Shown here: one piece after another, positions 20,481 to 48,118 of the stretch
How positions within the stretch are numbered: position 1 is the stretch's first letter
Layout of the letters: each line of letters starts with the position of its first letter
Assembly (NCBI RefSeq): GCF_026559675.1
Contig: NZ_CP092891.1
Span: 3,162,001 to 3,226,000 of the forward strand
From: Microbacterium oxydans
GTDB lineage: Bacteria > Actinomycetota > Actinomycetes > Actinomycetales > Microbacteriaceae
Length of the DNA: 64,000 nt
Direction of reading: 5' to 3'
Program-made: the position numbers and the translations under genes
The notes under the pieces: generated by a model
What the model saw: only the letters and a program-made list of their open reading frames with translations
What the model was told of the DNA's origin: nothing
The model's database searches: none

Positions 20481-20493
20481 CATCTGATATATT
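20481..20493 (+). promoter_or_regulatory. Operator-like motif (CATCTGATATATT)
   Basis: Copy 1 of the recurrent motif, 29 nt before the GTG of the secreted protein at 20522. One mismatch to CATCTAATATATT. Confidence 0.6.
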
Positions 20494-20521
20494 TACCTCT
20501 CATCTCAAGATTGGAACCACC

Positions 20522-21466
20522 GTGCGAATGCTCACCAAGGGCCTTGCAGCCGCAAGCCTCACCGCCGCCGTCCTCGCCGCCGGAATCGTGCCCGCCCAGG
20601 CCGCGACGACACAACTCCCCACAGAGAACGCCCCCACCGCCGCGCAGAATGCCTTTTCGACGATCTCGGTCGACACGGTCCATGCCGGGGACCGCTACAT
20701 CACCGGAAAGGTCACCGGCGACGCGAGGACCGTACGCGTCCTCGGTGTCATCCCCGGCCGAGGCCTCGACGGTACCGTTGAGGCCGACGGATCGTTCCGC
20801 GTCGACCTCTCCCCGTTCGCCAGTCGCATCTATCCGATGCAGCGGCTGAACACGATTGCCCTCGACGCCTCGGGCCGCATGATCGGCTCATCGGTCTTCA
20901 TCGTCGAGTTCGGAGAGCCCGACGCCCCGGCACCCGAACGTGATCTGCTCGTCGGGACGGTCACGTCCGACTCGACGCGCATCTCCGGTTCGGCAACGCC
21001 CGGCACGTCGGTCGTCATCGACGGTATCCCCGGCGCCCGCCCCGGCGCCGTCGTCACCAAAGACGGCAACTACACCATCGACGTCGGGCGCTACACGCTG
21101 ACCGCCGGTCAGGAGCTGACGGCCGTGAACGTCAACGCCAGCACGCTCGAGCCACTCGGCAAGCAGGTCACCTTCACGGTGGGCGCCGGCTCCGAAACGC
21201 CCGCCCCCGAGCCGTCCGGCGACATCGAGGCGAACCCCTTCCGCATGGGGCAGTATGTGGTGACGGGCACCGCGCCGGCCGGATCGACCTCGGTGGCCGT
21301 CGAGATCCTCGGAACCACTCAGTTCGGCACGATCGACGAGACCGGCAAGTTCTCGGTGCCTGTCGGCAGCCTGATCTACATGCTGCGCCCCGGGGTCACC
21401 ATCTCCGTGTGGGCGAGCGACGCGGACGGCAACTCTGTCGAGACCGAGATCACCGTCTCGCGCTGA
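20522..21466 (+). CDS. Secreted protein with three Ig-like repeats
   Basis: A 314-residue protein with a standard Sec signal peptide (about 1-28, ending PAQAA). The remainder has three beta-sandwich repeats of roughly 75-85 residues, with recurrent patterns such as ISGSATPGTSVVIDG and VTGTAPAGSTSVAVEI, typical of bacterial Ig domains (Big_6 type). There is no membrane anchor or sorting signal, so it is probably released or bound non-covalently to the wall. The start may be GTG 20522 or ATG 20528. Motif copy 1 precedes it and a strong terminator follows. Confidence 0.75.
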   Translation: MRMLTKGLAAASLTAAVLAAGIVPAQAATTQLPTENAPTAAQNAFSTISVDTVHAGDRYITGKVTGDARTVRVLGVIPGRGLDGTVEADGSFRVDLSPFASRIYPMQRLNTIALDASGRMIGSSVFIVEFGEPDAPAPERDLLVGTVTSDSTRISGSATPGTSVVIDGIPGARPGAVVTKDGNYTIDVGRYTLTAGQELTAVNVNASTLEPLGKQVTFTVGAGSETPAPEPSGDIEANPFRMGQYVVTGTAPAGSTSVAVEILGTTQFGTIDETGKFSVPVGSLIYMLRPGVTISVWASDADGNSVETEITVSR

Positions 21467-21475
21467 CGATCCCGT

Positions 21476-21510
21476 GGGATGCCCCGAGGTCGTGCGCCTC
21501 GGGGCATCCC
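21476..21510 (+). terminator. Strong hairpin terminator
   Basis: A 14-bp perfect stem, GGGATGCCCCGAGG against CCTCGGGGCATCCC, with a 7-nt loop, 9 nt after the stop codon. Confidence 0.85.
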
Positions 21511-21739
21511 GCGTATCCGGAACCGATCGACACCTCAGTTGACGAACGCCGAGGCCGGACAGGTCCTCGCACGCTCGCGCGCTCAGGCACGTGCGCTTTG
21601 CCTTCGAGCAGACGTGGCCCCCGCCGCATTCTTCAGCCAGTTCTTCTGGAGCGTCGGTGGGTGCTTGCACGCGTCAGACTCGCCGGGAGCGGATGTGGCC
21701 CGTTCCCGCATCTTCGCGTCCAGAGCTTCACTGCCACCG

Positions 21740-21995
21740 ACTCGTCCGGGCCACCCGCGACGAACTACCACTTCACGAGATACTCATGCGGTGCCGGTAG
21801 CGGGCGGGCCTTGCCGCCTCTGCGGCGATGGCTATCCCCCGCGATCCCGGCCAGTCGAATCAGCTGCGCGACGCCCTTCTTCCCGCATCGGATCCGCAAC
21901 CCGAGCCGCAGCTCCACGTGCACGCGGCGCGCCCCGTAGCTGACTCGGGAGTCCCTGCGAGTGCGGACGATCGCGACCGTCAGTTCCTCGTCGAC
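21740..21995 (-). pseudogene. IS3-family transposase (orfB) fragment
   Basis: On the minus strand the frame reads VDEELTVAIVRTRRDSRVSY, then GARRVHVELRLGL, RIRCGKKGVAQLIRLAGI and PHEYLVKW-stop-FVAGGPDE. This is the N-terminal part of IS3-type orfB (YGARRVHAEL, RLMRLAGI, then HEDLVKRQF in the family), with a nonsense codon and no catalytic DDE domain. The rest of 21511-22230 has no gene. Confidence 0.7.
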
Positions 21996-22236
21996 TCGTG
22001 CTCACTCCGATGGGAGGGCGGCTCTTCCACGCGCAGTGCCGCTATGCCGCTGCGGCTCGACGATCCCGGGTCGGAGCCTGAGGATCAGCGCGCGTGGAAG
22101 CGGACAGGGTTCCGACGAGGAGTCAACCGCGGCTGGAGCTCGAAGGGTTGACCGGACAGGGCAATAGATATTGGTCGACCTGTCGATGCGCGCTTCGGCT
22201 TGGCGGGCGGGAGCGCGCCACCCGTCCACACCTAAG

Positions 22237-22249
22237 CATCTAACATATT
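22237..22249 (+). promoter_or_regulatory. Operator-like motif (CATCTAACATATT) at the start of the protease gene
   Basis: Copy 2, ending 3 nt before the ATG at 22253. TAACAT inside it could be the -10 hexamer, with a leaderless transcript starting at or near the ATG; no ribosome-binding site is visible. Confidence 0.7.
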
Positions 22250-22252
22250 CCT

Positions 22253-24160
22253 ATGAAGTTCCGAATTATTGCAATCGCTATAGCCAGCGCTGCTCTAGCG
22301 ACGACCTTGCCAGCCGCCGCGGCTGAGGCTCTGCCCTCCGCAGGTAGGGGTTCCGCAACGAGCACCAGCGTTCCTACCGAAGCAACGGCAACCAGTCTGT
22401 CAGCTGCCGCCGCGCAGCAGGTTGAGTTCATCTTGTCGAAGCAGTTACCTAGCGGGGCGATCCAGAAGACCGATGGACATATTGAGCCGTACGCCGCGAA
22501 CACCGCCGCCCTTGGCCTGCTCGCTTCGGGGACCACTGTCGGGCGGACTGCAACTCACAAGTGGATGGAATGGACGCTCACTCATCTCAACGTCGGGTCA
22601 GACGTCGATGGACTCTCATACACGATCAGCGATTGGTCCGTTGCGGATGGCCAGGAACAACCGCATCAAGGCAATGCTGACCATCCGGTTCCATATGACT
22701 CGGTCGACAGCTACGCGGCGACGACTCTCATGGTGGCGGAGGCCGCTTATCGGACAGGAGACCCGGAGCTTCAGGCGTTCGTAGAGGAGAACATCCTCAC
22801 GTACGAAGCGATCGCGAACCTGCTGACCTATGCCCCACCGAATGGAGTGCGCATGCCCGACGGGCTCACCCGTGCGCTCGGGCGTTTCAGTTCGGAGTAC
22901 ACAATGGACAACTCGGAAGTTTTCGCGGGACTGAAGGCCTTCGGTGCACTGGAGTATGAGCTTGGCCGTGCGACCGAGGAGTACAACTACTACGACATCT
23001 GGGCGGGAACAACCCGCAACGCGATGCGAGAGCATCTTTTCACGGGCGATGGTTGGGATCTCGCCAAGGGCAGCGCCGGGAATGGCGAGTTCTACCAGTC
23101 CGGCATGCCGAACTACTTTCCCATTGTCTTCGGAGTTACCTCCGCGACGTCACCGGAATCGGTCACCGCGTGGGATGCGCTTCGTACGCGGTGGCCTCAC
23201 TGGGCGACCCGCGAGATCGGCACATGCGCGCCAGCGACATCTCTTGCTGCATCTGGAATCACCATGGGGAACGACGACGACGCACAGACACTTCTGGAAC
23301 AGACTGTCGCGGCCTTCGCGACTGACTCCTGGTCCTATCCCGCGACGTGCCCACAGGGCACGGACAAGATCGGCTCCTACTGGCACAGCGGTGAGGCCGG
23401 ATGGTTCCTGATAGCGGCGAAGGGACTTGGCGTCACCCCCGCACCCGAGATTGACTGGAACGACGCCATCAACCCTGCCGGCAGCGCCAAAGTTGAGCAA
23501 CGCGGCACCATTGGGGGCGGCGTATGGCTCCACGAGGGGTGGTACTACCTGCCGACCGCCGGCCACGTCGTCTACACCCTCGGGAACCCGGAGATAGAGT
23601 TCGGGACCGGCCGCGGAATGCTGGGACGCACTTCCCACAGCACCCGGGCAAACGGCGAATCAGGAATGAGAGACATCGGACTCGTCGCGACCGGAACACG
23701 ACCGATCGAGCCGCGCGTCCGGATCTCCAACACTGCGAAGGCAGATATATCTCGCATCGCAACTCCCGCTGATCTCACCGCAGGGACCGAAGTCTGCCAC
23801 TCCGGCACCTCAACGGACACCCTGGCCGCGGGTGGCTACCGATGCGGCACGCTGACCAAAGACTGCAAACGATCATCCGAACTCTGCGACATGATGAACG
23901 CCGAAGGCGTCGTGAGCAGCGGCGATTCCGGCGGTCTCGTCTGGATCCGCCAACCCGATGACAGCATCACTCTCGTCGGGTGGGTCTCCGCGCGAACCGC
24001 AACCGCTGGCTACTTCGTCCCAGCCTGGGCGCTACAAGACCACACATGGACTGCTTCGCAGACATGGGTACCTGGAAACGCGGAGGCTCCCCCCTTCCCG
24101 ACGGGCCGACAGGACACCGGCTGTTTCGTGACAACCGCGGGATGCGTCCGAGTCGAATGA
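22253..24160 (+). CDS. Secreted fusion: six-hairpin glycosidase-like region plus trypsin-like serine protease
   Basis: A 635-residue protein with signal peptide (about 1-25). Residues 50-400 are helical with repeated aromatic/Gly turns (for example AANTAALGLLASG, DSYAATTLMVAEAAY, SYWHSGEAGWFLIAAKGLG), resembling an (alpha/alpha)6-barrel of polysaccharide enzymes. Residues 415-610 carry a complete chymotrypsin-type triad in order: H438 in LPTAGH, D474 in MRDIGLV and S559 in SSGDSGGLV. Cysteine pairs fit disulfides. It may process glycoproteins or wall-attached targets, an inference. The motif overlapping its start puts it in the proposed regulon. Confidence 0.7.
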   Translation: MKFRIIAIAIASAALATTLPAAAAEALPSAGRGSATSTSVPTEATATSLSAAAAQQVEFILSKQLPSGAIQKTDGHIEPYAANTAALGLLASGTTVGRTATHKWMEWTLTHLNVGSDVDGLSYTISDWSVADGQEQPHQGNADHPVPYDSVDSYAATTLMVAEAAYRTGDPELQAFVEENILTYEAIANLLTYAPPNGVRMPDGLTRALGRFSSEYTMDNSEVFAGLKAFGALEYELGRATEEYNYYDIWAGTTRNAMREHLFTGDGWDLAKGSAGNGEFYQSGMPNYFPIVFGVTSATSPESVTAWDALRTRWPHWATREIGTCAPATSLAASGITMGNDDDAQTLLEQTVAAFATDSWSYPATCPQGTDKIGSYWHSGEAGWFLIAAKGLGVTPAPEIDWNDAINPAGSAKVEQRGTIGGGVWLHEGWYYLPTAGHVVYTLGNPEIEFGTGRGMLGRTSHSTRANGESGMRDIGLVATGTRPIEPRVRISNTAKADISRIATPADLTAGTEVCHSGTSTDTLAAGGYRCGTLTKDCKRSSELCDMMNAEGVVSSGDSGGLVWIRQPDDSITLVGWVSARTATAGYFVPAWALQDHTWTASQTWVPGNAEAPPFPTGRQDTGCFVTTAGCVRVE

Positions 24161-24462: not shown

Positions 24463-24715
24463 TTATTGGAGGCGGGAGACGGTTTCGATAGCGAGCTCTG
24501 CGGCGACGGGGTCGTTGTCGGTCACGGCCGCCTGCAGCCGTGGGTAGCCGTCTTCGAGGGCGGGCCATCTGGTGGTCGTCTCATCGCGGGTGGCGGTGAG
24601 CAGGTACGCGAGCGTGTCGATGATTTCCCGGGTGGCTCGCACGAGGCACGGGTTCGGGCACGCGTCGAGGAACAGGTGGATCAGTTCCCACCCTGCCTGC
24701 GCATGGGCATTCGTC
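24463..24715 (-). pseudogene. C-terminal stub of an FCD-type GntR regulator
   Basis: The last 80 or so codons match the end of the intact regulator at 30616-31260 almost residue for residue: LFLDACPNPCLVRATREIID against LFIAACSNSYLINATRDTIE, and GYPRLQAAVTDNDPVAAELA against GYPRLRDAVTAGDATAAELA. The DNA-binding half is missing; the match ends abruptly near 24715. It lies divergently upstream of the secreted protein at 25089, as does the other broken copy beside 38213. Confidence 0.85.
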
Positions 24716-24776
24716 TGCCTGCTTTCCCACCGACTCATGGACACATGCGGAACCGCGAGAGGCGCCCTTGCCCGAC

Positions 24777-24890
24777 ATGGTGGCTGACTACCGGTGGACA
24801 CCAGGGTCCGAAGCACTCGAGACCCTGATCGCCGGACAACAAGACCAACTCCGTCTTGCCCACCGATTGTGGAAGCTCTGGAAAGCGTAG
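24777..24890 (+). pseudogene. Short ORF, possible 5' remnant of a TnpB-like transposon gene
   Basis: A 37-codon frame, MVADYRWTPGSEALETLIAG then QQDQLRLAHRLWKLW. The helix pattern around QLRLAHR resembles the start of TnpB/Cas12-like proteins (RLAHRxRN), but it is too short to prove this. It abuts the break point of the GntR stub. Confidence 0.25.
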
Positions 24891-25067
24891 AAACCCCGAG
24901 GACACCTGCCAAGGCCCCGTACAGCCGCCAAGTGCAACCCCGCTATGACGCCATGGAAGCCGTTCAGAACGGTGCGCGTGCCCTCGGCCCTGCATTCTGC
25001 GTGCTCGACGCCGGGTTCGGGCCCGAGTTGCGAGGGCAGTCCATGCACACCGCCCCAATATGCTAAC

Positions 25068-25080
25068 CGTCTAATATACG
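25068..25080 (+). promoter_or_regulatory. Operator-like motif (CGTCTAATATACG)
   Basis: Copy 3, ending 8 nt before the ATG at 25089. TAATAT fits a -10 hexamer, and no Shine-Dalgarno separates it from the start, consistent with a leaderless message. Confidence 0.65.
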
Positions 25081-25088
25081 CTGTTGGC

Positions 25089-26589: not shown

Positions 26590-27519
26590 GTGAACGCATT
26601 CCTCCACACTCCTGCCCGAATCTCTCTGGCAGCAGTCGTCGCCGCAGGACTACTCACCGGATGCTCCCCGAGCGCCGACGCGCGGGGAGCCGACGCAACC
26701 CAAACCGCGACGATCGCCTCGGCGCCCGCGTCAATCGACCTGTCCGCAGAGTTGGAACAGCTGGAGAGCGAATCTGACGCCCGCATCGGTGTCAGCGCGT
26801 TCGACACCGGCACTGGCCAGACCGTCTCGTACGGGGCGGATGACAGATTCGGATTCGCTTCCAGCTTCAAGGCATTCGTCGCTGGAGGGTTCCTCCTTGC
26901 AGTCCCTGTAGCTGAACGGGACACAGTCGTCACCTGGACGCAAGAAGACATCGACGCCGCCGGTTACTCTCCGATCACTAGCGAGCACATCAGCGACGGG
27001 CTCACCCTGTCCCAGCTCGCAGAAGCCGCTGTGCGGGCCAGCGACAACACCGCCACCAACATCATCCTCAGAAGGATCGGTGGGCCCGCAGGTCTTCAGG
27101 AAATCCTCCGACAGGCCGGCGACAACACCTCACAGATCGTCAACTACGAACCCGATCTCAACATCATCGAACCGGGCAGCACCGATGACACCACCACACC
27201 CGCCGCGTTCGCTGCAGGCATTGGAGCCTTCCTGACCGGAACTGTGCTCGCAGCGTCCGACAAAGCGATGCTGATGGAATGGATGAGCGGCAACCCCTCC
27301 GGCGACCCCCTCATCCGCGCAGGAGCACCCGAAGGATGGACCGTCGCAGACAAGTCCGGCGGAGCCTATGGCATCCGCAATGACATCGCCATCATCACCC
27401 CGCCGGACCGCGAACCCATCATCCTCACCATCCTCACCCTGAAGAACGCCCCGGACGCAGAATACGAGAACGCCACCGTCGCAGACACCGCGAAAGTGGT
27501 TCTTGACGCCCTGAAATAG
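26590..27519 (+). CDS. Class A beta-lactamase lipoprotein
   Basis: GTG start at 26590; 309 residues. The N-terminus is a lipoprotein signal with lipobox LLTGC. All class A motifs are present: SSFK (active-site Ser and Lys), SDN in RASDNTA, the omega-loop E-x-x-L-N (YEPDLNIIEPGSTDDTTTP) and KSG in ADKSGGAYG. It should hydrolyse beta-lactams outside the membrane. No motif copy and no BlaI-type repressor is next to it. Length and motifs suggest a working enzyme. Confidence 0.92.
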   Translation: MNAFLHTPARISLAAVVAAGLLTGCSPSADARGADATQTATIASAPASIDLSAELEQLESESDARIGVSAFDTGTGQTVSYGADDRFGFASSFKAFVAGGFLLAVPVAERDTVVTWTQEDIDAAGYSPITSEHISDGLTLSQLAEAAVRASDNTATNIILRRIGGPAGLQEILRQAGDNTSQIVNYEPDLNIIEPGSTDDTTTPAAFAAGIGAFLTGTVLAASDKAMLMEWMSGNPSGDPLIRAGAPEGWTVADKSGGAYGIRNDIAIITPPDREPIILTILTLKNAPDAEYENATVADTAKVVLDALK

Positions 27520-28051: not shown

Positions 28052-28083
28052 CATCCAACATATTCTTTATGATTAGATGGTCT
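28052..28083 (+). promoter_or_regulatory. Two operator-like motifs, opposite orientation
   Basis: Copy 4 (CATCCAACATATT, 28052-28064) and copy 5 (reverse complement of CATCTAATCATAA, 28067-28079) lie 18-49 nt before the ATG at 28101. The 15-mer ATGATTAGATGGTCT (28069-28083) recurs exactly at 32076-32090. Confidence 0.7.
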
Positions 28084-28100: not shown

Positions 28101-29015
28101 ATGTATAGGAAGATGCTCGCATGGGGTGCGGTCCTGGTGACCGTCACGCTCTCGACGGTTCTGGCGTCCGCGCAGGAATCGTCCGCAACAACGCTTGAGC
28201 ACAACTCGTCAGCCGTAGACACCGATGACGCGTTCCTTGAAACCAGAATGACCATGGGTTACATGGTTCGCGTCACCGGCGGCAGCGTTTTTACGATGGA
28301 CTACGCCATCCGGGAATTCGAGGGAGACCTCAGCGCCGAGTGGTACAACTCGCCACCTCTTGCCGGCGAGGACGAGCCCTGGTTCGGCATCATGGCTCGC
28401 ATCCCCAGCGCCAGCGCGCCAGGACCCGTAACCTTCGGCGACCGGTGTTTCATCGGGGACGATACGGACAACTCTGTCCACTTGGGCTCTTGCGAGAGCC
28501 CGGCTGTGGTCACGTTCGAAACCGTCTGGGTGCCCTTCCCCCAGGTAGGTGGGTATTCCTACAGTTTGCAACTCATCGGGACGTTCCCAGGAGGTACTCG
28601 AGGTGCGCTCTCCCCCCAGGGAGACGGTCGGCTGGTACTCGACGAAACCATGCCCGAGGAATTCCTGTCCGGGAAGGAGATGACGATCGGTGATGGCGCC
28701 GGCGAGCAGCTCACGATGACGTCACATGAGGGCGGTGAAGTCTTCACCGACGGAGAATCCATCTCTGGCACCGCCCTGCCAGGCGCGCGAATAAGTATCA
28801 CCAGCGGCCCCGCAACAGTGGGTTCTTGCGCTGCCGACAAGACCATGCGGTGGGAGTGCACCGTCACCGTTCACCACGACGGCCCCGTCACACTGACTAT
28901 CAACTCCGGGAACTACAGCGCGCCCCTCCAACTCGACCTGATCGTCGTAGATTCTGCTCCACCCACCCCCCTCATCGACCTTGGCGGGCTCCTCGCCCTG
29001 ATCACCCGAAGCTGA
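28101..29015 (+). CDS. Secreted protein, two-cysteine module plus one Ig-like domain
   Basis: A 304-residue protein with signal peptide (about 1-24). C116 and C131 match the spacing of the cysteine module in the proteins at 25089 and 38213. Residues 203-283 form one Ig-like domain (ESISGTALPGARISI, then SCAADKTMRWEC). The tail reads DSAPPTPLIDLGGLLALITRS, close to the tails of its relatives but without a membrane helix. Sequence identity to the others is low outside these points, so it is a diverged paralog. Two motif copies precede it. Confidence 0.7.
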   Translation: MYRKMLAWGAVLVTVTLSTVLASAQESSATTLEHNSSAVDTDDAFLETRMTMGYMVRVTGGSVFTMDYAIREFEGDLSAEWYNSPPLAGEDEPWFGIMARIPSASAPGPVTFGDRCFIGDDTDNSVHLGSCESPAVVTFETVWVPFPQVGGYSYSLQLIGTFPGGTRGALSPQGDGRLVLDETMPEEFLSGKEMTIGDGAGEQLTMTSHEGGEVFTDGESISGTALPGARISITSGPATVGSCAADKTMRWECTVTVHHDGPVTLTINSGNYSAPLQLDLIVVDSAPPTPLIDLGGLLALITRS

Positions 29016-30408: not shown

Positions 30409-30427
30409 CATCTAACCATCATAGATG
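30409..30427 (+). promoter_or_regulatory. Palindromic operator CATCTA-N7-TAGATG
   Basis: Copy 6 and the best palindrome: both 6-bp arms are perfect. It lies 188 nt before the chosen GntR start, or 2 nt before an alternative ATG at 30430. Its position fits autoregulation. The rest of 29987-30408 shows nothing supportable beyond a repeated ACCTGGGTTCACC (about 30041 and 30137). Confidence 0.75.
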
Positions 30428-32073: not shown

Positions 32074-32086
32074 TGATGATTAGATG
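32074..32086 (-). promoter_or_regulatory. Operator-like motif (reverse orientation)
   Basis: Copy 7, CATCTAATCATCA read on the minus strand, 24 nt before the ATG at 32111. It shares 15 identical bases with the site at 28069-28083. Confidence 0.7.
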
Positions 32087-32110: not shown

Positions 32111-34669
32111 ATGAGCAAGTCTCGAGCACTGTCGCTCCGCGCTGTCGCTGTTGCGAGCTCGGTTGTTGGGCTGTTCTGCCTCATGGGAGTTCCCGCTGCG
32201 GCTGGAGCAACAGTGATAGCGTCATCCCCTCAGCTGTCTGCGCAATGGGTGCCGATCGGGCCGAACGGTCAGGCGGGCGCCATCGCCATCGCCCCTGGCG
32301 CCAAAGAGCACGCCGCCCTCATCCCGTCCTTTGGAGTGGAGCTTTGGGTCACTGATGATTCGGGTGTGACGTGGCGCCAGCTCCCTGATGTTCCGGGAGT
32401 GCGCAATGCCGGGGACACGAATCGGGTTGTCATTGATCCGGCGGACGGCTCCCATTGGTGGTACGCGGGGACAGCCATCGCCAGTGCTGAATCAGTGCTC
32501 CTCGAGACCGTTGACGGGGGGCAGACCTGGTCCGAGGCCGCGCGCTTCCCCGGGGAGCTGCTTACGTTCCTTGTCACCGGCCCCGAATCCGCTCTTGTCG
32601 TTGCGACGTCCACAGGGGCGACCACGACAACGGTCCATACCCGCAACGGGTCGGATGCCTGGAGCTCTCAGTCGCTAGATACGGGTGCCCGGGTCTTGAA
32701 GGTCATCTCCCACGGCGACGCACTCATTCTTCGCGGAGCTTTCGCTGCGTGGCGGCTCGATAGTCCCGGTAGCGGTTCTGATGCGGTCGAGATCTACCGG
32801 GTGAGTGACGCTTCGCGGCGTGCGGTGGAAGAGCAACAGACCAATGCACGCACCAGCGACGAGGATGTGAATCAGATCTGGGATATGGCCAGCACCGAAT
32901 CGGTCGTCCTCGTGAAGGAATTGGGCGGCAAGATTGTGGGGTCGACGGACGCGGGCACCACGTGGACCGACTGGGGTGTACCGCATGATGTGTCTGCGAT
33001 CTCCAGCAATGGCGATGCCCTGTACTTGGTCCGCAGCGGCCCACCCCCTCGATGGGTGGATATCACCACCGACGCGGGGGCGAGCTTCACGCCGTTGCGG
33101 ATTCCCGATGACGGTGCGATCGAGCACCAGTTCACCACCTGGGCGGATGGGTCCCTTACCTCCGCGAATCCGAGATCCGGCCTCTATCGCACGACCGACA
33201 ACGGGCACCGGTGGGACCGCACAGGCGTTCAAGGAACGAGCGGTCTCGATCTTCTCGCCCATGGGAACCGACTCTTCGCCGGGACCGAGTATGGACTCGC
33301 GAGCACGACCATCCCGGCGGTTTCCCCGGAGTGGGGGACAACGGGCGGCGAGGCGCGGGTGGGGACGACCACAGCCGAGCTCGCAGATGCAGGCGACGAT
33401 CAGTTGGTGTGGAAAGCGGTCAACGCGACATTCAACGAACTCGATGTGCACTCGTCCGCCGACGATGGGAAGACCTGGAACAAGCGAACCAACGTGTACG
33501 GCGTGGCCCGGGAACTGCTGGTGCATCCCGCAGACCCGGACACGGTGATCCTCACCTGGCAGCTCGCATCAAGGTGCGGCGTGCACGTTACGCACGATGG
33601 TGGGAACACGTGGACCACGTCATTGAGCGAGTGCTTCGACGCCGTGATCGGCGATCCGAACGACCCGGACCGTGTCTGGTTTGGCGGCCCCGCCGGACTA
33701 TTCCGCTCTGACGACGGCGGCGCGACGGGTGAACAAGTATCCGACATCCCCACGTCCACGATCCTGCTCGACAAACACCAAATCATCATCGGGGGCGACA
33801 AACTTCACACAAGCGACGATGATGGCGCGACGTTCACCCAGAGCACTCGACCTGCACCCACCTCCTCGAGCGCGAACACGAACTTCACCTCCCTCGTTCG
33901 ATCCGGCCCTCGTCTCTTCGTCGGGTTCACAACCGGAGCAAACACCGCCAATACGGGCGTGCTTGTCAGTTCGGACGGCGGTAGCACGTGGGCCGGATTC
34001 TCGACCGGACTCCAAAACTCGGAAGTCCTCTCTCTCGCGATCAGTCCCGACGGCAACACGCTCTTTGCGGGAACCCGCAATGGAGGGGTCCACTCAACAC
34101 CCCTCCCCCCGCGCATAGCCCCCTCAGCAACCGCTGACACCGCGCACACGGTGTTCGGCGAAATGGTATCGATCAACGTGCTCGACAATGACAGCGGGGG
34201 CGACTTGCGGATCGATCCCGAGACCGTCGCACTCCAATCTCCCGAAGACGGAACGTGGAACATGTCACTGAAGCTGCCACGTGTCGGCGCATTTACTGTT
34301 GACCCCACGGACGGCACCGTGGCATTCGTGCCCGACGCGTCATTCAGCGGCACGACCCGACCAGTGACCTACCGCTTCACGAACACGGACGGTGAAACGG
34401 CGCACGCGGAACTGAAAGTCGTCGTCGCCGCTCCGACCGCCCCCGACGACGGATCGGGATCTGGATCCGGATCCGGATCCAACTCTGGGAACGGAGTAAA
34501 CCCGCCCGGCGGCTCTAAGCCGGGAGTGGGATATCTGGCGAACACCGGCACCGATCCGATGCCCATCATCGCAGCCGCTGTGGCCCTCCTTGCCGCCGGC
34601 ACCACTCTGGCCGTCCGCGCACGCCGTCGTCGTCGCGCTCCACACCATCACGCAGGGATTGATCTATGA
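32111..34669 (+). CDS. Cell-wall-anchored beta-propeller/CshA-repeat protein with LANTG sorting signal
   Basis: ATG 32111 (MSKSRALSLR) gives a normal signal peptide ending AAAGA. About 852 residues. Residues 40-650 have repeated BNR/Ycf48-type blades (S-x-D-x-G-x-T-W: DDSGVTWRQL, VDGGQTWSE, SADDGKTWNK, HDGGNTWTT, SSDGGSTWAG). Residues 670-775 fit a CshA-type fibril repeat (VSINVLDNDSGGD, then PVTYRFTNTDGETA). A Gly/Ser linker follows, then LANTG, a hydrophobic helix and RARRRRR, a class E sortase signal. It should be covalently attached to peptidoglycan. The last bases overlap the peptide transporter start. Confidence 0.8.
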   Translation: MSKSRALSLRAVAVASSVVGLFCLMGVPAAAGATVIASSPQLSAQWVPIGPNGQAGAIAIAPGAKEHAALIPSFGVELWVTDDSGVTWRQLPDVPGVRNAGDTNRVVIDPADGSHWWYAGTAIASAESVLLETVDGGQTWSEAARFPGELLTFLVTGPESALVVATSTGATTTTVHTRNGSDAWSSQSLDTGARVLKVISHGDALILRGAFAAWRLDSPGSGSDAVEIYRVSDASRRAVEEQQTNARTSDEDVNQIWDMASTESVVLVKELGGKIVGSTDAGTTWTDWGVPHDVSAISSNGDALYLVRSGPPPRWVDITTDAGASFTPLRIPDDGAIEHQFTTWADGSLTSANPRSGLYRTTDNGHRWDRTGVQGTSGLDLLAHGNRLFAGTEYGLASTTIPAVSPEWGTTGGEARVGTTTAELADAGDDQLVWKAVNATFNELDVHSSADDGKTWNKRTNVYGVARELLVHPADPDTVILTWQLASRCGVHVTHDGGNTWTTSLSECFDAVIGDPNDPDRVWFGGPAGLFRSDDGGATGEQVSDIPTSTILLDKHQIIIGGDKLHTSDDDGATFTQSTRPAPTSSSANTNFTSLVRSGPRLFVGFTTGANTANTGVLVSSDGGSTWAGFSTGLQNSEVLSLAISPDGNTLFAGTRNGGVHSTPLPPRIAPSATADTAHTVFGEMVSINVLDNDSGGDLRIDPETVALQSPEDGTWNMSLKLPRVGAFTVDPTDGTVAFVPDASFSGTTRPVTYRFTNTDGETAHAELKVVVAAPTAPDDGSGSGSGSGSNSGNGVNPPGGSKPGVGYLANTGTDPMPIIAAAVALLAAGTTLAVRARRRRRAPHHHAGIDL

Positions 34670-37628: not shown

Positions 37629-37994
37629 CTATACAGATTCACGGCGCTCCCCAAATCGCCGCACCGTGGTCACAACCGCCCCGGACCACTCCCCCGACAA
37701 GAGCACCGAGCGTCTGCAACACGGCCGTACGATCCTCGGGTTTGGCGACCGTGACCCGCGTGTAACGCTACGGCGCGGTCTCCACCAACCCGATCCGAGT
37801 GAGGCCACTGAGCGCTTCACGCACCGGCGTACGCGACATCCCCAACCAGCGCTGCAACTCTTCATCACTGAGCCGCTCCCCCGGCACGAGCGTCCCATCA
37901 AAGATCGTCGCCCGAATCCGGTCTACCGCAACCTCTCGCAACGACACCCTCGCCGGCCTGTCGCCTCCCGCACCACCCGCTGACCGGTAGGCAC
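37629..37994 (-). pseudogene. FCD-type GntR regulator, nonsense-mutated and truncated copy
   Basis: The DNA-binding half matches the intact regulator closely (VDRIRATIFDGTLVPGERLS against AERIRTAILEGTLVPGEQLN; GMSRTPVREALSGLTRIGLV). A TAG at 37768-37770 replaces the Gln codon of SPQRYTRV, a one-base C-to-T change, and a one-base frameshift follows at VVR. The FCD domain is missing. The start is also out of frame with the rest. It is divergent from the secreted gene at 38213 with motif copy 8 between them. Confidence 0.85.
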
Positions 37995-38062: not shown

Positions 38063-38075
38063 AAAATATTAGATG
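38063..38075 (-). promoter_or_regulatory. Operator-like motif between the broken gntR and the secreted gene
   Basis: Copy 8, CATCTAATATTTT on the minus strand, about 70 nt from the gntR remnant start and 138 nt from the GTG at 38213. Confidence 0.65.
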
Positions 38076-38212
38076 AGTAGCGCGGATGGGTGCTCCATGC
38101 CGCGCAATGGGGATTCGGTCTATCCGACCCCGAACACCACTGCCGGCGTGACTGCAGGGCTCGCTCTGCGTGCTGTGCAGTGACCACCCCACCAATCAAA
38201 GGAACAATCACT

Positions 38213-40943: not shown

Positions 40944-43088
40944 TCAGTCGTTCATGCAGAGTTGCGTTGTGGGCTGGTTCGGAATCTCCGCCACGATACA
41001 TCTGGCCTGGGCGAGTGGTGAGTCAGCGGCGTCGAAGTTCGCGGTCAGCGTGAGCGCACCATCTCCGAACGTTGTGCGTTGGATACCGTCTGCTGGTCGC
41101 TCGAAGGATGTCAGCGACAGTGTTCCTGCAGCGTCTTGCACGGTTGTGAAGAATCTTTGGAATCGCGCGAGGTCGTCGCCGTGGTCGGTGAGGACTTGGG
41201 CATCGAGCGCGAGGATGAGGGGAGTGTTGTAGAGCATGCTCGTCAACACACGGTCACCGACGAGCCCCGGGAACTTGTACAGTCCGAGCTCCCACCGGTC
41301 GGTTGTGACGACCGAGTCGTGGAGGACGGTGCTGTACATCGGGATGCGGTACCGCGGATCGAACATGGCCGTCGCAAGGTCGTCGGGCAGAGTGACGGGT
41401 TTGAAGAAGTTGTCTGGCCTGTTCACTGGCGTGTAACCGCCCCATTGCTCCTTATCCCGCTCAAATGCCCACAAGCCGTTGGCGATCGGAGTGCTGGACC
41501 CATGGGAGAAGTCGACACCAGAGCTTGCCCACGATCCAGCTGACTCAGATCCGACCACGAGCGGAAGGCCGTTGCTGTAGCCGCCGGACATGAGCCGCTC
41601 CAGCCGTTCGAGTCGCAATGCACGATCCTCCGCTTCAGTCATCGGGTGCCCGGGACTGAAGTCCTTGAACAGTTCGCCGACGGCGTCGACATCGAGGAAG
41701 TAGGAGCTTGAGCCGTTCTGGATCAGCGCATTCACACGGTCACTGATGACTCCGCTCTGCGCGTCGGCGGCGGCGAGAGCTGCGGCACTCAGGTAGCAGC
41801 CGCGCCCGCCGAACCCGGTGACAGGGTTCCCGTCGGCATCGGTGACACATCCGTCCGGCCATAGCCCAGGCCAGATCGCGAGTGGAGTATCGGCAGTTTC
41901 CGGGTCCTGAACGTTCGCCCACGTGTCGTAGGGGCCGACCAGGAAGCCAGCGTCCTTCGCGGCTTGCACGGCAGCCGCACTGACCGGGTCCGTGTCATAG
42001 CCTAGCCATGCGTTCGTGATACCAAGATCGGTGAGCTGGTCGACGATTTCTGGTTTCTGCCCAGTCCCCCAGGTGTAGGCGTGGAATGCGCCGAGGAGTT
42101 TCGCTACCTCTGGATTCGAGGCGATCTTCTCATCAAGGGTCACGATGTCGCCCGAGGTTTCAAGGTCGCGGCGGTAGTCCTGCGCAGCAGCGACCGGATT
42201 GCCGTCCGTCGGGGACATCGCAACGCGGTAACGCTGCGTGCCGCGGCTGGCACTGAAGTTGTGCTCAGCGGTCGCCCGAATACCGTGAAGCGTGTCGTCG
42301 AAGGACAGTGATGAACCGATGTCGTCGCGCATGATGTAGCTGACACCAGCACCGTTGAACGTGGCGCCCCACACCGGCAGGGTCAGCCCGCCGGCGAAGT
42401 CCCACGATGTACCCATCAGGCCCGCCGCGTCAGACGACCAGAAGGAATCTCGAACGGGGATGCTCTGCCCTTCTCCATTCGCGAACTCGATCGAAGCCAG
42501 ACCCGCCCCAGTCGGCGACACAGGCCAGGACACCCCCCGATCGGTCACTGACGTGATATCGACCTCAAGGCGACCATCGATTGCTTCCGCCGTCACGGTG
42601 ATGCCGCTGTCGTAGCTCCACCGCACCTGCCCGCCCACGGTCGTCGGTACGGATGGGGTGCCGAGATCGGTCAGCGAGGGAGCAGACCACCGAGTAGATT
42701 CGGCTCCCGCCCCGCTGTAATCGACCTGGAGGTCATCGAGGGCGATCGATACCGTGCCCGAACCAACATCCACCACGACCTGCTCCACAACCGACGCGTG
42801 CGTCGGCACCGTCACCGCGGCAGTCGTTGAGACGAGGGCGAACACCGCAACACCCGACACAGTCATCGCTCGGAACAGGGGGCGGGCGAGCACGCGCTTT
42901 CGCCACGTTTGCAGCCGATTGAGGCGAGACGTCAAGAGATGTCCAATCCATCGCAGAATCGCGATCACAACCAGCCCTCGAGGCGAGGGGTTCCTGCTAA
43001 CCAACCGATGACGCACGGGAGCGCGCAGGCTCCGCAAATTGTCCTTAGCGGGGGAGTTCTTTTCGTGAGCTGCCCCCAATACCCTCAT
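40944..43088 (-). CDS. Secreted glycoside hydrolase related to GH101/GH129
   Basis: Up to 714 residues; the start is uncertain, but a membrane/signal segment ends near THASVVE (about residue 98). Residues 110-310 are an N-terminal beta-sandwich, and 310-640 a TIM-barrel core with FHAYTWG, WLGYDTDPVSA, YFLDVDAVGELFKDFSPGHP (candidate Asp nucleophile) and VVGSESAGSWA (candidate acid/base). This resembles endo-alpha-N-acetylgalactosaminidase-type enzymes that release mucin-type glycans; the exact family and substrate are inference. No motif copy is near its start. Confidence 0.6.
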   Translation of the reverse strand: MRVLGAAHEKNSPAKDNLRSLRAPVRHRLVSRNPSPRGLVVIAILRWIGHLLTSRLNRLQTWRKRVLARPLFRAMTVSGVAVFALVSTTAAVTVPTHASVVEQVVVDVGSGTVSIALDDLQVDYSGAGAESTRWSAPSLTDLGTPSVPTTVGGQVRWSYDSGITVTAEAIDGRLEVDITSVTDRGVSWPVSPTGAGLASIEFANGEGQSIPVRDSFWSSDAAGLMGTSWDFAGGLTLPVWGATFNGAGVSYIMRDDIGSSLSFDDTLHGIRATAEHNFSASRGTQRYRVAMSPTDGNPVAAAQDYRRDLETSGDIVTLDEKIASNPEVAKLLGAFHAYTWGTGQKPEIVDQLTDLGITNAWLGYDTDPVSAAAVQAAKDAGFLVGPYDTWANVQDPETADTPLAIWPGLWPDGCVTDADGNPVTGFGGRGCYLSAAALAAADAQSGVISDRVNALIQNGSSSYFLDVDAVGELFKDFSPGHPMTEAEDRALRLERLERLMSGGYSNGLPLVVGSESAGSWASSGVDFSHGSSTPIANGLWAFERDKEQWGGYTPVNRPDNFFKPVTLPDDLATAMFDPRYRIPMYSTVLHDSVVTTDRWELGLYKFPGLVGDRVLTSMLYNTPLILALDAQVLTDHGDDLARFQRFFTTVQDAAGTLSLTSFERPADGIQRTTFGDGALTLTANFDAADSPLAQARCIVAEIPNQPTTQLCMND

Positions 43089-43452: not shown

Positions 43453-44076
43453 TCATATGCGGACGATTCCGGTTCGGACGGCCTGGGCTATTGCGGCTCC
43501 CCGATTATCGACACGGAGCTTGGTGTAGATGTGGTGCAGATGGGTCTTCACTGTGCCTTCGCTGACGAAGAGCGCGCGTCCGAGGTCACGATTCGAGTAG
43601 CCTCGGGCAAGTAGCTCAAGGACCTCTATCTCGCGAGACGTGAGTGCTTCGTCGGGCTTCTGAGTGCGCCCGAGGAGCCGAGTTGCAACGGTTGGCGACA
43701 AGGCCGAGATCCCGGCGGCTGCCGAGCGGATCGCCGAGAACAGGTCTGGCGGTCGCGAATCTTTGAGGAAGTACCCGATTGCGCCGGCTTCCACTGCGCG
43801 GACTATGTCTGAGTCCGTGTCATAGGTCGTGAAGACGAGCACGCGCGTCTCCGGCCGCGCGGTCATGAGCTGCGCTGTGAGGTCGAGTCCTGAGATATCC
43901 GATCCCAGGTTCAGGTCCATCAAGACAACGCTTGGGGAGAACTCCGCGGCGAGGGCAAGGACGACCTCAGGGTCGCCGGTCTCCGCCACGACAGCGAGAT
44001 CGTCCTGGGTGTCGATCAGTCCAGCCATGCCGTACCGAAGCACTGGATGGTCATCGACGAGCATGACTCGGATCAT
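43453..44076 (-). CDS. NarL/FixJ-type response regulator (SenR-like)
   Basis: A 207-residue regulator: receiver domain with acidic pair DD, phospho-acceptor Asp in VLMDLNL (about residue 54), Thr in FTTYD and Lys in FLKDS; LuxR-type helix-turn-helix at 140-205 (SREIEVLELLARGYSNRDLG). The ATG overlaps the stop of the sensor kinase by 4 nt. Together with the secreted HbpS-like protein it resembles the HbpS-SenS-SenR system of Streptomyces. Confidence 0.9.
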   Translation of the reverse strand: MIRVMLVDDHPVLRYGMAGLIDTQDDLAVVAETGDPEVVLALAAEFSPSVVLMDLNLGSDISGLDLTAQLMTARPETRVLVFTTYDTDSDIVRAVEAGAIGYFLKDSRPPDLFSAIRSAAAGISALSPTVATRLLGRTQKPDEALTSREIEVLELLARGYSNRDLGRALFVSEGTVKTHLHHIYTKLRVDNRGAAIAQAVRTGIVRI

Positions 44077-45239
44077 CCCGCAATATCCGTATCGTGCGTC
44101 GGTACCGTGATGGAGACGATGGTTCCCATTCCCGGCGCGGATGCCACTTCGAGTTCGCCTCCCGCGGTGATCGCTCGCCAGCGCATCGCTCTCAGCCCGT
44201 AGCCGGCTTCGGGGTCAGGGGTGGCGAGAACGTCAAAGCCTGCACCGTCATCTCCGACGTCGACGCCGACCTGCGAGGCCGCGTAGGTGAGTGTGACGAT
44301 GATGCGCTCAGCGCGGGCGTGACGTGATGCGTTGGCGACTGCCTCTTGGGCCACTCTGAGAAGCGCGTGGGCTTGGCTCTCGGTCACGGGCCGCTCCGTC
44401 CCGATCATGTGCAACTGCGCGCCCGCTTCTGCGGCGACGTCGGCCAGGGCTGCGCCCAGTGACCTGCCTGCGAGATCTGCAGTCGACAGCCCGTTCACCA
44501 GTCGCCGGGTCTCGACCAGATTGGCGCGCAGAACGTCCTGCGCTCTCGCGGCACCCGGAGATACCGTCCCCATGCGCTGCTCATCTGTTTCGAGAAGCAG
44601 CAGCGCGCTGGCTGTCCCCTGCACGACGGTGTCATGCAGTTCCGCGGCGACGCGTCGCCGTTCCGTCTCGATACCCGCTTCCCTCTCTGTGAGCGAGAGC
44701 CGTTGCTGCGTGTCCTCCAGTTCAGCAATCAATGCTCCACGCACTTCATGCAGCCGTTCAAGGGCAGCGTATGCGAGCGTGAGAATGCCTCCGGCGCAGA
44801 GTGGTCCGAAGAGCATTCCCGCGTCGCTCCACTCAGACCAGCGGAACAGGCTCACTCCGACAGCGATCACGATAAGTGCCGTCACGCCAAAGGCCCACCC
44901 CGTCGGATAGGCCCGGTGCGCGGCGAAGAAGAGCGGCACGGCGCACCAGGCGAAGCTTGGTGCGCCGACGACGAGCAGCATCCAGATGCCGATCGCAAGA
45001 CCGGCACCGATGCGTCGACGGACCGGGGTGGGATGTCCGACTCGGCCGATGAGATATGCAATCCATGAGACGGAAGCGCCAGCGAGCACGAGTGCACCCA
45101 TGTCGTCGAGACCATGGTTACCCAGATACCGGGACCCGCACACCACAAGCAGGACCGCGAACGAGATATCCACGGCGAGGTCTATGGACTTCATCTCCGC
45201 AGGACGGACGACGGAGAGGGACGCGATCTGGGTGTTCAT
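44073..45239 (-). CDS. NarL-type sensor histidine kinase (SenS-like)
   Basis: A 388-residue kinase with about five membrane helices (residues 25-160), then the HisKA_3 dimerisation domain with phospho-accepting His in RRVAAELHDTVVQG and the HATPase domain (VAQEAVANASRHA, DDGAGFD, GYGLRAMRWRA). It phosphorylates the coupled regulator. The absence of a large outer domain suits sensing through a partner such as the divergently encoded GlcG/HbpS lipoprotein. Confidence 0.9.
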   Translation of the reverse strand: MNTQIASLSVVRPAEMKSIDLAVDISFAVLLVVCGSRYLGNHGLDDMGALVLAGASVSWIAYLIGRVGHPTPVRRRIGAGLAIGIWMLLVVGAPSFAWCAVPLFFAAHRAYPTGWAFGVTALIVIAVGVSLFRWSEWSDAGMLFGPLCAGGILTLAYAALERLHEVRGALIAELEDTQQRLSLTEREAGIETERRRVAAELHDTVVQGTASALLLLETDEQRMGTVSPGAARAQDVLRANLVETRRLVNGLSTADLAGRSLGAALADVAAEAGAQLHMIGTERPVTESQAHALLRVAQEAVANASRHARAERIIVTLTYAASQVGVDVGDDGAGFDVLATPDPEAGYGLRAMRWRAITAGGELEVASAPGMGTIVSITVPTHDTDIAG

Positions 45240-45376
45240 ACCTCCATCAAGTATCCCCAGTCACCTGAGAAGCGCATCAACCGTTCGATAGATCATGCTC
45301 GGGCTGAACGGTCGATGCGCGCGAATCGACCCCAGCACAGGATGGAGAAGACCCCATCACCCGAAAGGACTCACTC

Positions 45377-45937: not shown

Positions 45938-46049
45938 CTCCGGTGCGCCTGGCCGCCACGTGCAGCCGGGCGCACCGACCGCTCACTCGAGATGCAGGAG
46001 CTCCGACGCCCCGGCCCTGTGCAGCCCTCGTTGACCGGGTTCAGCGCCG

Positions 46050-46220
46050 TCATCGCACGAAGCCCTTCGGCGTCTGCGTGGAGGCTGCTTCGGCTCGTGT
46101 CGCAGGATCTTTCTGGGGGCAGCGGCGGTTGGCCAATATCGACAACCGCATGACGCCGAAGGCACACAATGCACCGAGAGCCTGAGCCAGTGGGTTCGTG
46201 CAGGTGAGCACAGCGATCAC
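46050..46220 (-). CDS. Possible small membrane protein coupled to the glycosyltransferase
   Basis: The GTG at 46220 overlaps the stop of the glycosyltransferase (GTGA). The 56 codons encode one helix (NPLAQALGALCAFGVMRLSI) and a basic tail. It could be a real small protein, or the former C-terminus of the glycosyltransferase after a frameshift. Confidence 0.35.
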   Translation of the reverse strand: MIAVLTCTNPLAQALGALCAFGVMRLSILANRRCPQKDPATRAEAASTQTPKGFVR

Positions 46221-47854
46221 GCAGCCTGTAGCGACACCACGCGCTCGACCCGCGGCACAGCGCCCACCGCAGACCGCATGTTCCCGACGGCGCCTGCGGC
46301 ACGGTCCTTGCCACTGAAGGCCGTGAGGTACCACGCCGCTGCAGCACAGCCCGCGAAGACGAGCGCCGGGGCGATGGAGTGCGTGAGCAGGAGAGCCGCT
46401 ATCAGGGCGACGCACGCGACGCCCACTTCGATCGCGACGGTCGCTCGCCATCCTTTCGTGCTGCGGCGCTTCGGCGTGACCGCGAAGACAGCCCGCTTGC
46501 CGAAGGCAACCCTGGCGGTCGAACGGATCGTGACCCAGGTGATCGAGGCGAAGAGCGCAAGCCCACGGCCGAGGAACACAGCGGCGCCGATCGGGTGACG
46601 TGCGCCGATGCGACGGAAGACCTCGCCGAGGAGCGGCGCTACACCGCAGATCGCGAGAGTCGCTCCCATCCATGTCGGCATGATCGCGCCCCCATCCGGT
46701 CCGAGTGGAAGCAAACCGCCGAGGAACATGATGATCGCGAACGCGGCACCAGCAGGAGCGATCACCGTGTCGAGCAGCAGATCGATCTTCTTGGCAGCGC
46801 TCAGACGGGACCGGATGATCGTCGATGTGTACCGTCCGACGAACTCGGTGGCGCCCTCGACGAACTTGCCGTACTGCTTCTTGAAGGCGTGATAGTCGAC
46901 CGGGTAGTCCTCGCTGCTGACGAGCTCGGGCGCATAGACGATGTCGAACCCGGCTCGCTGCACTTCGAGGCTGAAGGCGAGGTCTTCCATGACCATCTCG
47001 GGGAAACCGCCGACGGCGTCCACACACTCCGCGGTGATGAGCGCACCGCGTCCCATGAAGAACGAGAAGCCGTAGGCCGAGCGAACGAGCTGCGTCACCT
47101 TCACGTGCGTCTCGAACATCGGCCCGAACTCGTCGGCGAAGCGCGACTGACCACGGTGAGGGCGATGACGCCCCTGTACGACACCGACCCCACGCGTGGC
47201 GGACTCATGGAAGAGGCGGGCGAGTGCACGCTCGACGAAGTCAGGTTGGAGCACCTCATCACTGTCGAGGATGACGAACGCGTCATAAGCGGGCCGGGTG
47301 GCGAAGAAGTGGTTGAGGTTTCCGGCCTTGTAGCCGGTCCTCTCCGCGCGCCGCATGACGTGGGCACCGGAAAGGCGGGCGAACGCGTCGATTTCGCGAC
47401 GGATCGTCGCGTCAGAGGAATCGTCGAGGATGACCGTGCTCACACCAGGGTGAGTCTGACGCATCGACGCGGCGAGGGCGTCCGCGTCGAAGTCGTTCGC
47501 CGTGCAGTACAGCAAAGCGACATGGGTCTCTGAAGCGAGCTGGCTCGCCCCAGCCGTGCGCATCTCGAGTTGACGGGCCACATCGACTTTGCGTTCCCGG
47601 TGGGCGGCGAACGGGTAGGCGGCGAGGATCGCGATGGACCGCAACCCTCCGAGCCACACTGTGCCGATGAGCGTCCCAATCAGCACAGAGAAGACCACAC
47701 CCGCCCAGCCGGAGAATCCGGTCGCCGCCCCGATGCCGACGGCCGCGACCGTGATGAGGCCGGCCCACAGTACGAGTGTGAAGACACCCACGACGATGTC
47801 CCGTCGTGAGGGAGGAGCAGACGGAGAGGGGGTTGATGCGGTTGGAAGGCTCAT
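46217..47854 (-). CDS. Membrane glycosyltransferase family 2
   Basis: A 545-residue protein with two N-terminal helices (about 20-75), a GT-A domain at 105-330 and three to four C-terminal helices. GT2 motifs are visible: LDDSSD, YKAGNLNHFF, the DxD-like LDSDEV, MVMEDLAFS (acceptor-site Asp) and QYGKFVEG in place of QxxRW. This is the cellulose-synthase/hyaluronan-synthase-like layout, so it may polymerise or export a surface glycan. The 5' region contains TCTAACCATC (47871-47880), ten bases shared with the palindromic operator at 30411, so it may belong to the proposed regulon. Confidence 0.8.
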   Translation of the reverse strand: MSLPTASTPSPSAPPSRRDIVVGVFTLVLWAGLITVAAVGIGAATGFSGWAGVVFSVLIGTLIGTVWLGGLRSIAILAAYPFAAHRERKVDVARQLEMRTAGASQLASETHVALLYCTANDFDADALAASMRQTHPGVSTVILDDSSDATIRREIDAFARLSGAHVMRRAERTGYKAGNLNHFFATRPAYDAFVILDSDEVLQPDFVERALARLFHESATRGVGVVQGRHRPHRGQSRFADEFGPMFETHVKVTQLVRSAYGFSFFMGRGALITAECVDAVGGFPEMVMEDLAFSLEVQRAGFDIVYAPELVSSEDYPVDYHAFKKQYGKFVEGATEFVGRYTSTIIRSRLSAAKKIDLLLDTVIAPAGAAFAIIMFLGGLLPLGPDGGAIMPTWMGATLAICGVAPLLGEVFRRIGARHPIGAAVFLGRGLALFASITWVTIRSTARVAFGKRAVFAVTPKRRSTKGWRATVAIEVGVACVALIAALLLTHSIAPALVFAGCAAAAWYLTAFSGKDRAAGAVGNMRSAVGAVPRVERVVSLQAA

Positions 47855-48099
47855 GATTCAATCCTGACCTTCTAACCATCTGAGCACATCAGACCACGGT
47901 ACGAGATCTGCCATCGGCCACGGGACCCCGACCCCTGCGTACCCCGGCCGGCACGCGAAAACGCCGAGCGAGCCAAGCGCCCTGACATCCGGCGCCGACA
48001 CGCGCAGTCCGATGGCCCGGTCGCCCACCTCCCCAGGCGAGCGACCGGACTGACGATACGAGATCGTCTGATTCGAGAGGCGAATCTTACTCATCTTAT

Positions 48100-48118
48100 C
48101 ATCTAATATGTTCAGATG
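48100..48118 (+). promoter_or_regulatory. Palindromic operator-like motif before the carbonic anhydrase
   Basis: Copy 9, CATCTA-ATATGTT-CAGATG, inverted repeat with one mismatch and the same N7 spacing as the site at 30409. It lies 71 nt before the ATG. A further TACTCATCT half-site sits at 48089. The remaining 47881-48088 shows no gene. Confidence 0.75.

Follow-up and report, generated by a model that had tools for sequence, protein, structure and literature searches.

The locus in Microbacterium oxydans

A stretch of 64,000 nt from Microbacterium oxydans (contig NZ_CP092891.1, positions 3,162,001 to 3,226,000; in the following, the window) contains a short recurrent motif with the core CATCTAAYAT, which precedes genes for exported proteins and for a GntR-type regulator. 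The motif is real and is confined almost wholly to one 56-kb stretch of the genome, which extends past the window end into a locus coding for exosortase R (XrtR). We consider it likely that the motif is the operator arm of paralogous GntR regulators, which would control their own genes, the XrtR locus and a set of exported proteins. Positions are those of the window, continued past its end (64001-84000, stretch L011). Genes are named by their lower coordinate, and gene calls were made with an in-house script. The sites and genes inside the window are:

20481..20493, +: motif CATCTGATATATT, 34 nt before the ATG at 20528; 19.7 bits
20528..21466, +: Big_6/Big_15 protein, secreted; the sequence shows no C-terminal anchor
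22237..22249, +: motif CATCTAACATATT, 3 nt before the ATG at 22253
22253..24160, +: GDSGG-containing secreted protein; matches a serine protease weakly (19.4 bits, cut-off 175)
24469..24801, -: GntR remnant, C-terminal part, 45% identical to 30616
25068..25080, +: weak motif CGTCTAATATACG, 8 nt before the ATG at 25089; 15.6 bits
25089..26285, +: secreted Big_6 protein, ending in SPLIN and a short tail
28052 (+) and 28067 (-), span 28052..28079: two opposed motif copies, a composite resembling the conserved block CTCTAATCATCCAATATGTTAG
28101..29015, +: secreted protein; Big_6 match below cut-off; ends in TPLID and a short tail
30409..30427, +: motif with inverted arm, CATCTAACCATCATAGATG; 15.8 bits
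30616..31260, +: GntR/FCD regulator; homologs (59-64% identical) adjoin a 67854/68522-like pair in three Mycetocola
32074..32086, -: motif CATCTAATCATCA, 24 nt before the preferred start at 32111
32111..34669, +: secreted BNR/Vps10-like protein; CshA repeat; C-terminal LANTG, membrane stretch and arginines
37681..37950, -: GntR remnant, DNA-binding part, 70% identical to 30616
38063..38075, -: motif CATCTAATATTTT, 137 nt before the GTG at 38213; 24.3 bits
38213..39187, +: surface protein; Big-type matches; C-terminal signal SPVIDPTLAGGAGIALFAIAG...RNRK and membrane tail
48100..48118, +: motif with inverted arm, CATCTAATATGTTCAGATG, 71 nt before the ATG at 48190; 21.2 bits
48190..48993, +: alpha-carbonic anhydrase; lipoprotein-like N-terminus (by eye)

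For two of these genes, an internal start is preferred because a signal-peptide-like stretch begins there (25089, in an ORF that opens at 24945, and 32111, in an ORF that opens at 32084). Sortase-anchor models match the 32111 protein below their cut-offs, and the C-terminal signal of 38213 resembles those of putative XrtR substrates from other genera. The 22253 protein has a homolog (39% over 223 positions) in an exosortase/GntR locus of another Microbacterium genome (G595), and the 25089 protein is 28% identical, over 353 aligned positions, to a putative exosortase substrate of the same genome. Both parts of CTCTAATCATCCAATATGTTAG recur in the opposed pair at 28052-28079, where the spacer is wider. 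Two further genes lie within the cluster: one for a beta-lactamase-family lipoprotein-like protein (26590-27519), which has no motif of at least 12 bits just upstream, and one for a GH129-type glycosidase with a signal-like N-terminus (40944-43088), which has no motif copy.

Past the window end, the region continues as follows:

67076-67732, -: GntR/FCD gene, the first of three in tandem
67854-68525, -: GntR/FCD gene of the tandem array
68522-69211, -: GntR/FCD gene of the tandem array
69242-69254: motif CATCTAGTATTTG, 30 nt upstream of GntR 68522; 17.3 bits
69426-70784, -: glycosyltransferase
70794-71411, -: exosortase R (XrtR); NCBIfam NF012138, 190.8 bits, cut-off 150
71478-71657, -: 59-residue membrane protein
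71694-71706 and 71751-71763: two motif copies in the divergent gap before wecB
71804-72937, +: wecB (295.6 bits, cut-off 210)
72934-73536, -: GntR gene
73858-74226: GntR remnant
74327-75130, -: second copy of the 38213 surface gene; a 7-bp tandem duplication frameshifts the signal-peptide region
75305-76021, -: GntR gene
76076-76088 and 76129-76141: two motif copies upstream of GntR 75305

The two surface genes (38099-39171 compared with 74327-75241) have ends that are 91% and 98% identical and divergent middles. The 7-bp duplication in the 74327 copy could reflect phase variation or decay. In XrtR, C102, R147 and H167 are invariant in five aligned sequences, including that of M. oxydans; we take them to be the Cys, Arg and His of the family active site. 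Proteins of the 38213/74327 type are putative XrtR substrates, judged from C-terminal similarity. At 66542-66554, a motif-like TGTCTAATATTTC overlaps the start called for a DsbA-like gene, which is followed by a DsbD-like gene; the DsbA-like gene is a possible extra member of the regulon.

The motif and its confinement

The motif was found at all nine places named in an earlier note, which had been made from the letters of the window. Its 13-mer consensus is matched exactly at 22237 and with one mismatch at 20481, 28052, 38063 and 48100. The copy at 25068 has three mismatches, and those at 28067 (-), 30409 and 32074 (-) lie outside three mismatches and share only CATCTAAYCAT. That no copy occurs before 20.4 kb holds, except for a weak site at 2671 (12.4 bits) and a site with three mismatches at 6299. 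That none occurs after 48.2 kb holds inside the window, beyond which there are strong copies at 69242, 71694, 71751, 76076 and 76129. The regulon boundary placed at 48 kb is therefore not tenable: the cluster runs to 76.1 kb, and the core of the regulon, an exosortase locus, is 5 to 12 kb past the window end.

In the 3.78-Mb genome, CATCTAAYAT has six exact matches, all between 22237 and 76138 (54 kb) and all intergenic, and the reversed control has none. The 13-mer, with up to two mismatches, has ten matches genome-wide, eight of them in the cluster; again, the reversed control has none. Among 396 related genomes, 37 contain the exact CATCTAAYAT, with the M. oxydans genome (included) having six, the next highest four and other genomes of the genus two at most. 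Within the window only, the 13-mer at up to three mismatches was found seven times against 2.7 expected, and 4 of 100 shuffles were as high; this excess is modest and a weak test, while the whole-genome count is a strong one.

A matrix was built from 13 M. oxydans sites only and scored by leave-one-out over 124 kb on both strands. These sites rank 2 to 17, the lowest being 25068 (rank 17), 30409 (16) and 28052 and 28073 (both 14). Block shuffles of the region gave a mean of 0.63 matches of at least 15 bits, compared with 14 found (the matrix having been trained on 13 of these 14). Between 20 and 49 kb, every match of at least 12 bits precedes an exported-protein gene or GntR 30616. When 25 sites were aligned with their flanks, information was limited to positions 0 to 11 of CATCTAATATTT, a 12-bp arm, with a weaker base preference at -2 and -4.

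The earlier note had described inverted repeats CATCTA-N7-YAGATG, and these are present at 30409 and 48100. As a general dyad, this arrangement was rejected: the 25 aligned sites have no regular second arm, and the full dyad occurs only these two times in 124 kb. The note was also right on a 15-mer common to 28069 and 32076 and on the occurrence of TCTAACCATC at both 30411 and 47871, neither of which has further copies in the same 124 kb (the two short words were searched on the plus strand only).

Association with GntR genes in other species

All 38 other Microbacterium genomes with a match to an exosortase (another one than XrtR) were read. Three of them (G575, G595 and G632) have, at the exosortase locus, counterparts of GntR 67854, 68522 and 75305 (in the following, the trio), which adjoin wecB and genes for a surface protein, a small protein, an exosortase and a glycosyltransferase. 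At a threshold of 15 bits, the M. oxydans matrix has three, two and two matches in these loci (16.6 to 21.8 bits). They lie before the 68522-like GntR gene, between wecB and the 75305-like GntR gene, or before the exosortase or glycosyltransferase gene. For comparison, 43 exosortase stretches without GntR were used (35 from Microbacterium, three from other genera and five with XrtR; in one case, L182 of G720, the GntR genes are on a separate contig, and the set includes some closely related pairs). None reaches 15 bits, the best match being 14.7. In 200 block shuffles, the three loci gave a mean of 0.19 matches of at least 15 bits, and two at most, against the seven found. With HATCYAAYATDTT at up to one mismatch, 9 of 10 genome-wide matches are in the M. 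oxydans cluster, and 3 of 7, 3 of 5 and 2 of 2 are in the locus of G575, G595 and G632, respectively; 17 of the 19 other genomes have one to five matches. A looser motif word has 19 to 27 matches per genome, mostly background.

Further cases came in after the threshold had been set: G670 (L145), then G752 and G720, from a search of 335 genomes with a 67854-like alignment, and Mycetocola. By tblastn, G670, G752 and G720 have all three trio GntRs and no better match to 30616, as is also the case for G575, G595 and G632. Each has matches of at least 15 bits in its divergent gap, so that the motif is present at this threshold in six of six other Microbacterium trio loci. Exact copies of a wider motif word fall in the trio gap or locus in G670 (2 of 3), G752 (2 of 3), G720 (2 of 2) and G632 (2 of 2), and five genomes have the block CTCTAATCATCCAATATGTTAG unchanged in the divergent gap. 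The exosortase S model finds no match in G670 or G752, and neither genome belongs to the 39 exosortase-matching Microbacterium genomes. As they have both trio and motif, the motif stays with the GntR regulators rather than with the exosortase. Mycetocola lacteus has 68522-, 67854- and 30616-like GntRs and matches of up to 24.3 bits, some of them beside genes that, by eye, resemble surface-polysaccharide genes; Mycetocola saprophilus has one match above 15 bits. The first 11,930 bases of two M. lacteus contigs (L202 and L203) are identical, which is a repeat or an assembly effect. Of five second-tier GntR homologs, only the one in G047 is accompanied by a related pair of sites.

It is extremely improbable that the motif is merely an AT-rich word whose intergenic copies cluster by chance. 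The modest excess in the window at three mismatches and the low-threshold matches of the reversed matrix would fit this, but the genome-wide confinement with zero control matches, the shuffles and the conservation in other species do not.

The earlier note had singled out 30616 as the regulator. The trio 67854/68522/75305 tracks the motif better: the GntRs at the six other Microbacterium trio loci with the motif are, by tblastn, only 67854-, 68522- and 75305-like, and three 30616/67076-like genes in another genome (G657) have no motif nearby. An exception to this pattern is Mycetocola, where a 30616-like gene adjoins the 67854/68522-like pair.

Distribution of exosortase R

XrtR is rare. Only the M. 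oxydans genome among 148 passes the family cut-off, and there is no other strong match in 366 Microbacterium genomes (next best 73.9 bits, compared with 362). Strong relatives were found in 5 of 398 genomes besides M. oxydans (G234, G410, G210, G469 and G496, from four other genera of the family); no named XrtR relatives were found in a scan of the contigs of named genomes. In G410, G210, G469 and G496, XrtR is surrounded by a glycosyltransferase, wecB and a surface protein. These surface proteins end in TP and hydrophobic residues, a membrane stretch and arginines, much as 38213 and 74327 do. A small membrane protein is also encoded near XrtR in G410, G469, G496 and G234 (the G234 neighbourhood was assessed through tblastn only). 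The exosortase R (NF012138) neighbourhood is alike in its XrtR, glycosyltransferase, wecB and surface protein with a C-terminal signal. No GntR relative was found in the stretches read from the other genera, whereas in M. oxydans intact GntR genes number six and remnants three, and the set of exported proteins is wider.

That the motif travels with XrtR was considered and rejected, because the exact CATCTAAYAT occurs zero to one times in each of these five genomes and matrix matches at their XrtR stretches reach 13.3 bits at most. The single exact copy of G234 is far from XrtR.

The GntR family and its putative operator class

The intact GntR genes of M. oxydans are 30616, 67076, 67854, 68522, 72934 and 75305. 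PF00392 is found in all six and PF07729 (FCD) in four at E 0.01, not in 72934 and 75305; no NCBIfam equivalog cut-off is reached. Their recognition-helix region, SRTPx(R/K)EA, is near-identical, so that several of them may read the same operator; this region is also common in the GntR family at large. FCD-type GntR proteins with structures (3ihu, 3sxy, 4p9f McbR and others) have the winged helix in common with them, and the FCD domain with those in which it is recognised. Regulators of this type often repress their own operon.

The comparison was widened to 49 loci with distant GntR homologs (L209-L257; Jiangella, Promicromonospora, Streptomyces and others). A palindrome YRAHATDTYR, mostly CAATATATTG, lies at most 80 bp upstream of the GntR start in 33 of the 49. 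The control word has no match, and the background is 0.004 per 84 bp, or about one per 22 kb. Each of the six other Microbacterium trio loci has two or three words of this palindromic class, among them TAATATATCA, CAATATGTTA and TAATATTTCG, and all but one (L145:10648) coincide with matrix matches of at least 10 bits. This operator class differs from the TNGTNNNACNA type, which is typical of many FadR-like members. No GntR paper was found for the letters of the palindrome among the literature matches listed. In Brevibacterium, five GntR loci (L233, L239, L248, L253 and L256) have two copies of CATCTAATCACTT, about 1.05-1.12 kb apart and 3' of the GntR start.

The window copies might instead be mostly nonfunctional leftovers from repeated duplication of a module of GntR and surface gene. 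Three GntR remnants and a duplicated surface gene with 98% and 91% identical blocks are present in the region, the M. oxydans sites keep a single arm, and two of them (30409 and 25068) score weakly. However, when the region was compared with itself (blastn, E 0.01), the flanks of no two copies aligned, the 38063 copy is outside the duplicated block 38099-38310, and the sites between 20 and 49 kb have the consistent placement described above. We regard this reading as very doubtful.

Proposed regulation

The motif, its confinement, its places and its co-occurrence with GntR genes across species are established by sequence comparison. The same kind of evidence supports the proposal of the earlier note that a surface-protein regulon is under a GntR operator. 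Copies precede GntR 68522, 75305 and 30616 and occupy the gap between XrtR and wecB. The GntR paralogs encoded in and around the XrtR locus (FCD type, where a second domain is recognised) would bind the motif and are probably repressors. Regulators like 67854, 68522 and 75305 are the best candidates for the binder, which may be a single paralog or a heteromer. When bound, they would repress their own genes and those for XrtR, the glycosyltransferase and WecB. The same regulators would control lineage-specific exported proteins, namely Big-domain, protease-like and LANTG proteins and the carbonic anhydrase. Repression may occur by covering of the core promoter, as some copies lie on or next to a possible -10 or -35, and a ligand may bring about release. 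A plausible leaderless -10 would be covered by the site at 22237, and likewise by the sites that many distant homologs have at their start codons; elsewhere the distance to the start codon is mostly a few tens of bases.

Instead of a GntR operator, the motif might itself be a promoter element (TAAYAT as the -10, joined to a fixed upstream part, or an alternative sigma or two-component site). TAACAT at 22237 is placed where a leaderless promoter would have its -10, and the palindromes of many distant GntR genes are right at the start codon. Potential regulators are also at hand, with a LuxR-type response regulator and kinase at 43453-45239 and, by eye, a further regulator/kinase-like pair at 80909-82755 and a similar pair beside the Mycetocola GntRs. 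Yet the copies at 28067, 32074, 38063 and 69242 are opposite to the gene that they precede, as are those at 76076 and 76129 if they serve GntR 75305. The 43 exosortase stretches have promoters of their own and no 15-bit match, the motif stays with the GntR trio where an exosortase is absent, and the distant GntR genes carry two-armed palindromes. A promoter element is unlikely.

A variant of GntR control is a coat switch, in which an array of GntR regulators with one shared operator selects which exosortase- or sortase-anchored proteins are displayed. Its elements would be duplicating modules of regulator and surface gene, middle domains that diverge, and a 7-bp repeat prone to slippage in one signal-peptide region. 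We rate such a switch as quite improbable.

Several observations weigh against a GntR operator. (i) The XrtR stretches (29-40 kb) of the five genomes from four other genera contain no GntR relative. (ii) Not one of 14 M. oxydans sites matches the full palindromic class; one arm is kept, mostly CTAAYAT. (iii) The 15-bit threshold was picked after the scores were known. At 10 bits, the three GntR loci have eight, nine and five matches and the reversed matrix five, two and zero, and the 43 stretches hold 29 matches compared with 11 for the control; AT-rich gaps therefore add noise. (iv) Some exact words are also found away from the cluster; CATCCAATATGTT, for example, is present in G002 and at 1174266 in M. 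oxydans. (v) Mycetocola tolaasinivorans has 68522-, 67854- and 30616-like GntR genes but no match of at least 12 bits in 12.7 kb, and second-tier GntR homologs in G735, G796, G644 and G082 have no motif nearby, as with the 30616/67076-like genes of G657. (vi) There are few independent lineages (M. oxydans itself, G595, the G575 group and Mycetocola). In G575, G632 and G670, the 67854- and 68522-like proteins are 77-86% identical and the 75305-like proteins 64%, so that these species count for less than independent cases; judged from the gap sequence, G752 and G720 look as close as the G575 group.

Other features of the window

A likely defence island precedes the regulon, with PADLOC matches to PDC-S06 (6319-8607, 366 bits), PDC-S11 (12361-13389, 128 bits) and UzuA (14179-15282, 358 bits) and a phage-type integrase (8826-9434). 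Rfam and tRNA scans of the window gave no matches.

Relation to known systems

The earlier note knew of no described system of this make-up, but a related one has been reported. In the Proteobacterial PEP-CTERM/EpsH system, a cis-motif with a sigma-54 site lies upstream of the genes for 99 of 167 exosortase-sorted proteins, its distribution matches that of PrsK, PrsR and PrsT, and Prs regulators are often encoded near glycosyltransferase and exopolysaccharide genes (PMC1569441). One exosortase-substrate gene has been shown to depend on RpoN (PMC9850573). Both systems have a shared cis-motif before exosortase-linked surface genes and a regulator of matching distribution. They differ in that PEP-CTERM/Prs has an NtrC-like response regulator with sigma-54 in Gram-negatives, whereas M. 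oxydans, an actinobacterium, has GntR paralogs and a different motif, with the regulators inside the exosortase locus. In the M. oxydans region, the regulators recognised belong to the GntR and LuxR types; PrsR and sigma-54 sites were not searched for. Among titles and abstract openings, no paper was found on a GntR-regulated exosortase or on exosortase regulation in Actinobacteria, and the literature matches listed for exosortase R/XrtR were unrelated papers.

Haft 2006 noted that further regulators and motifs were still to be found (PMC1569441). Gram-positive exosortases are known mainly from sequence models. With a candidate operator, candidate regulators and a candidate regulon named, the exosortase system of M. 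oxydans could be switched on, and its substrates and purpose could be tested.

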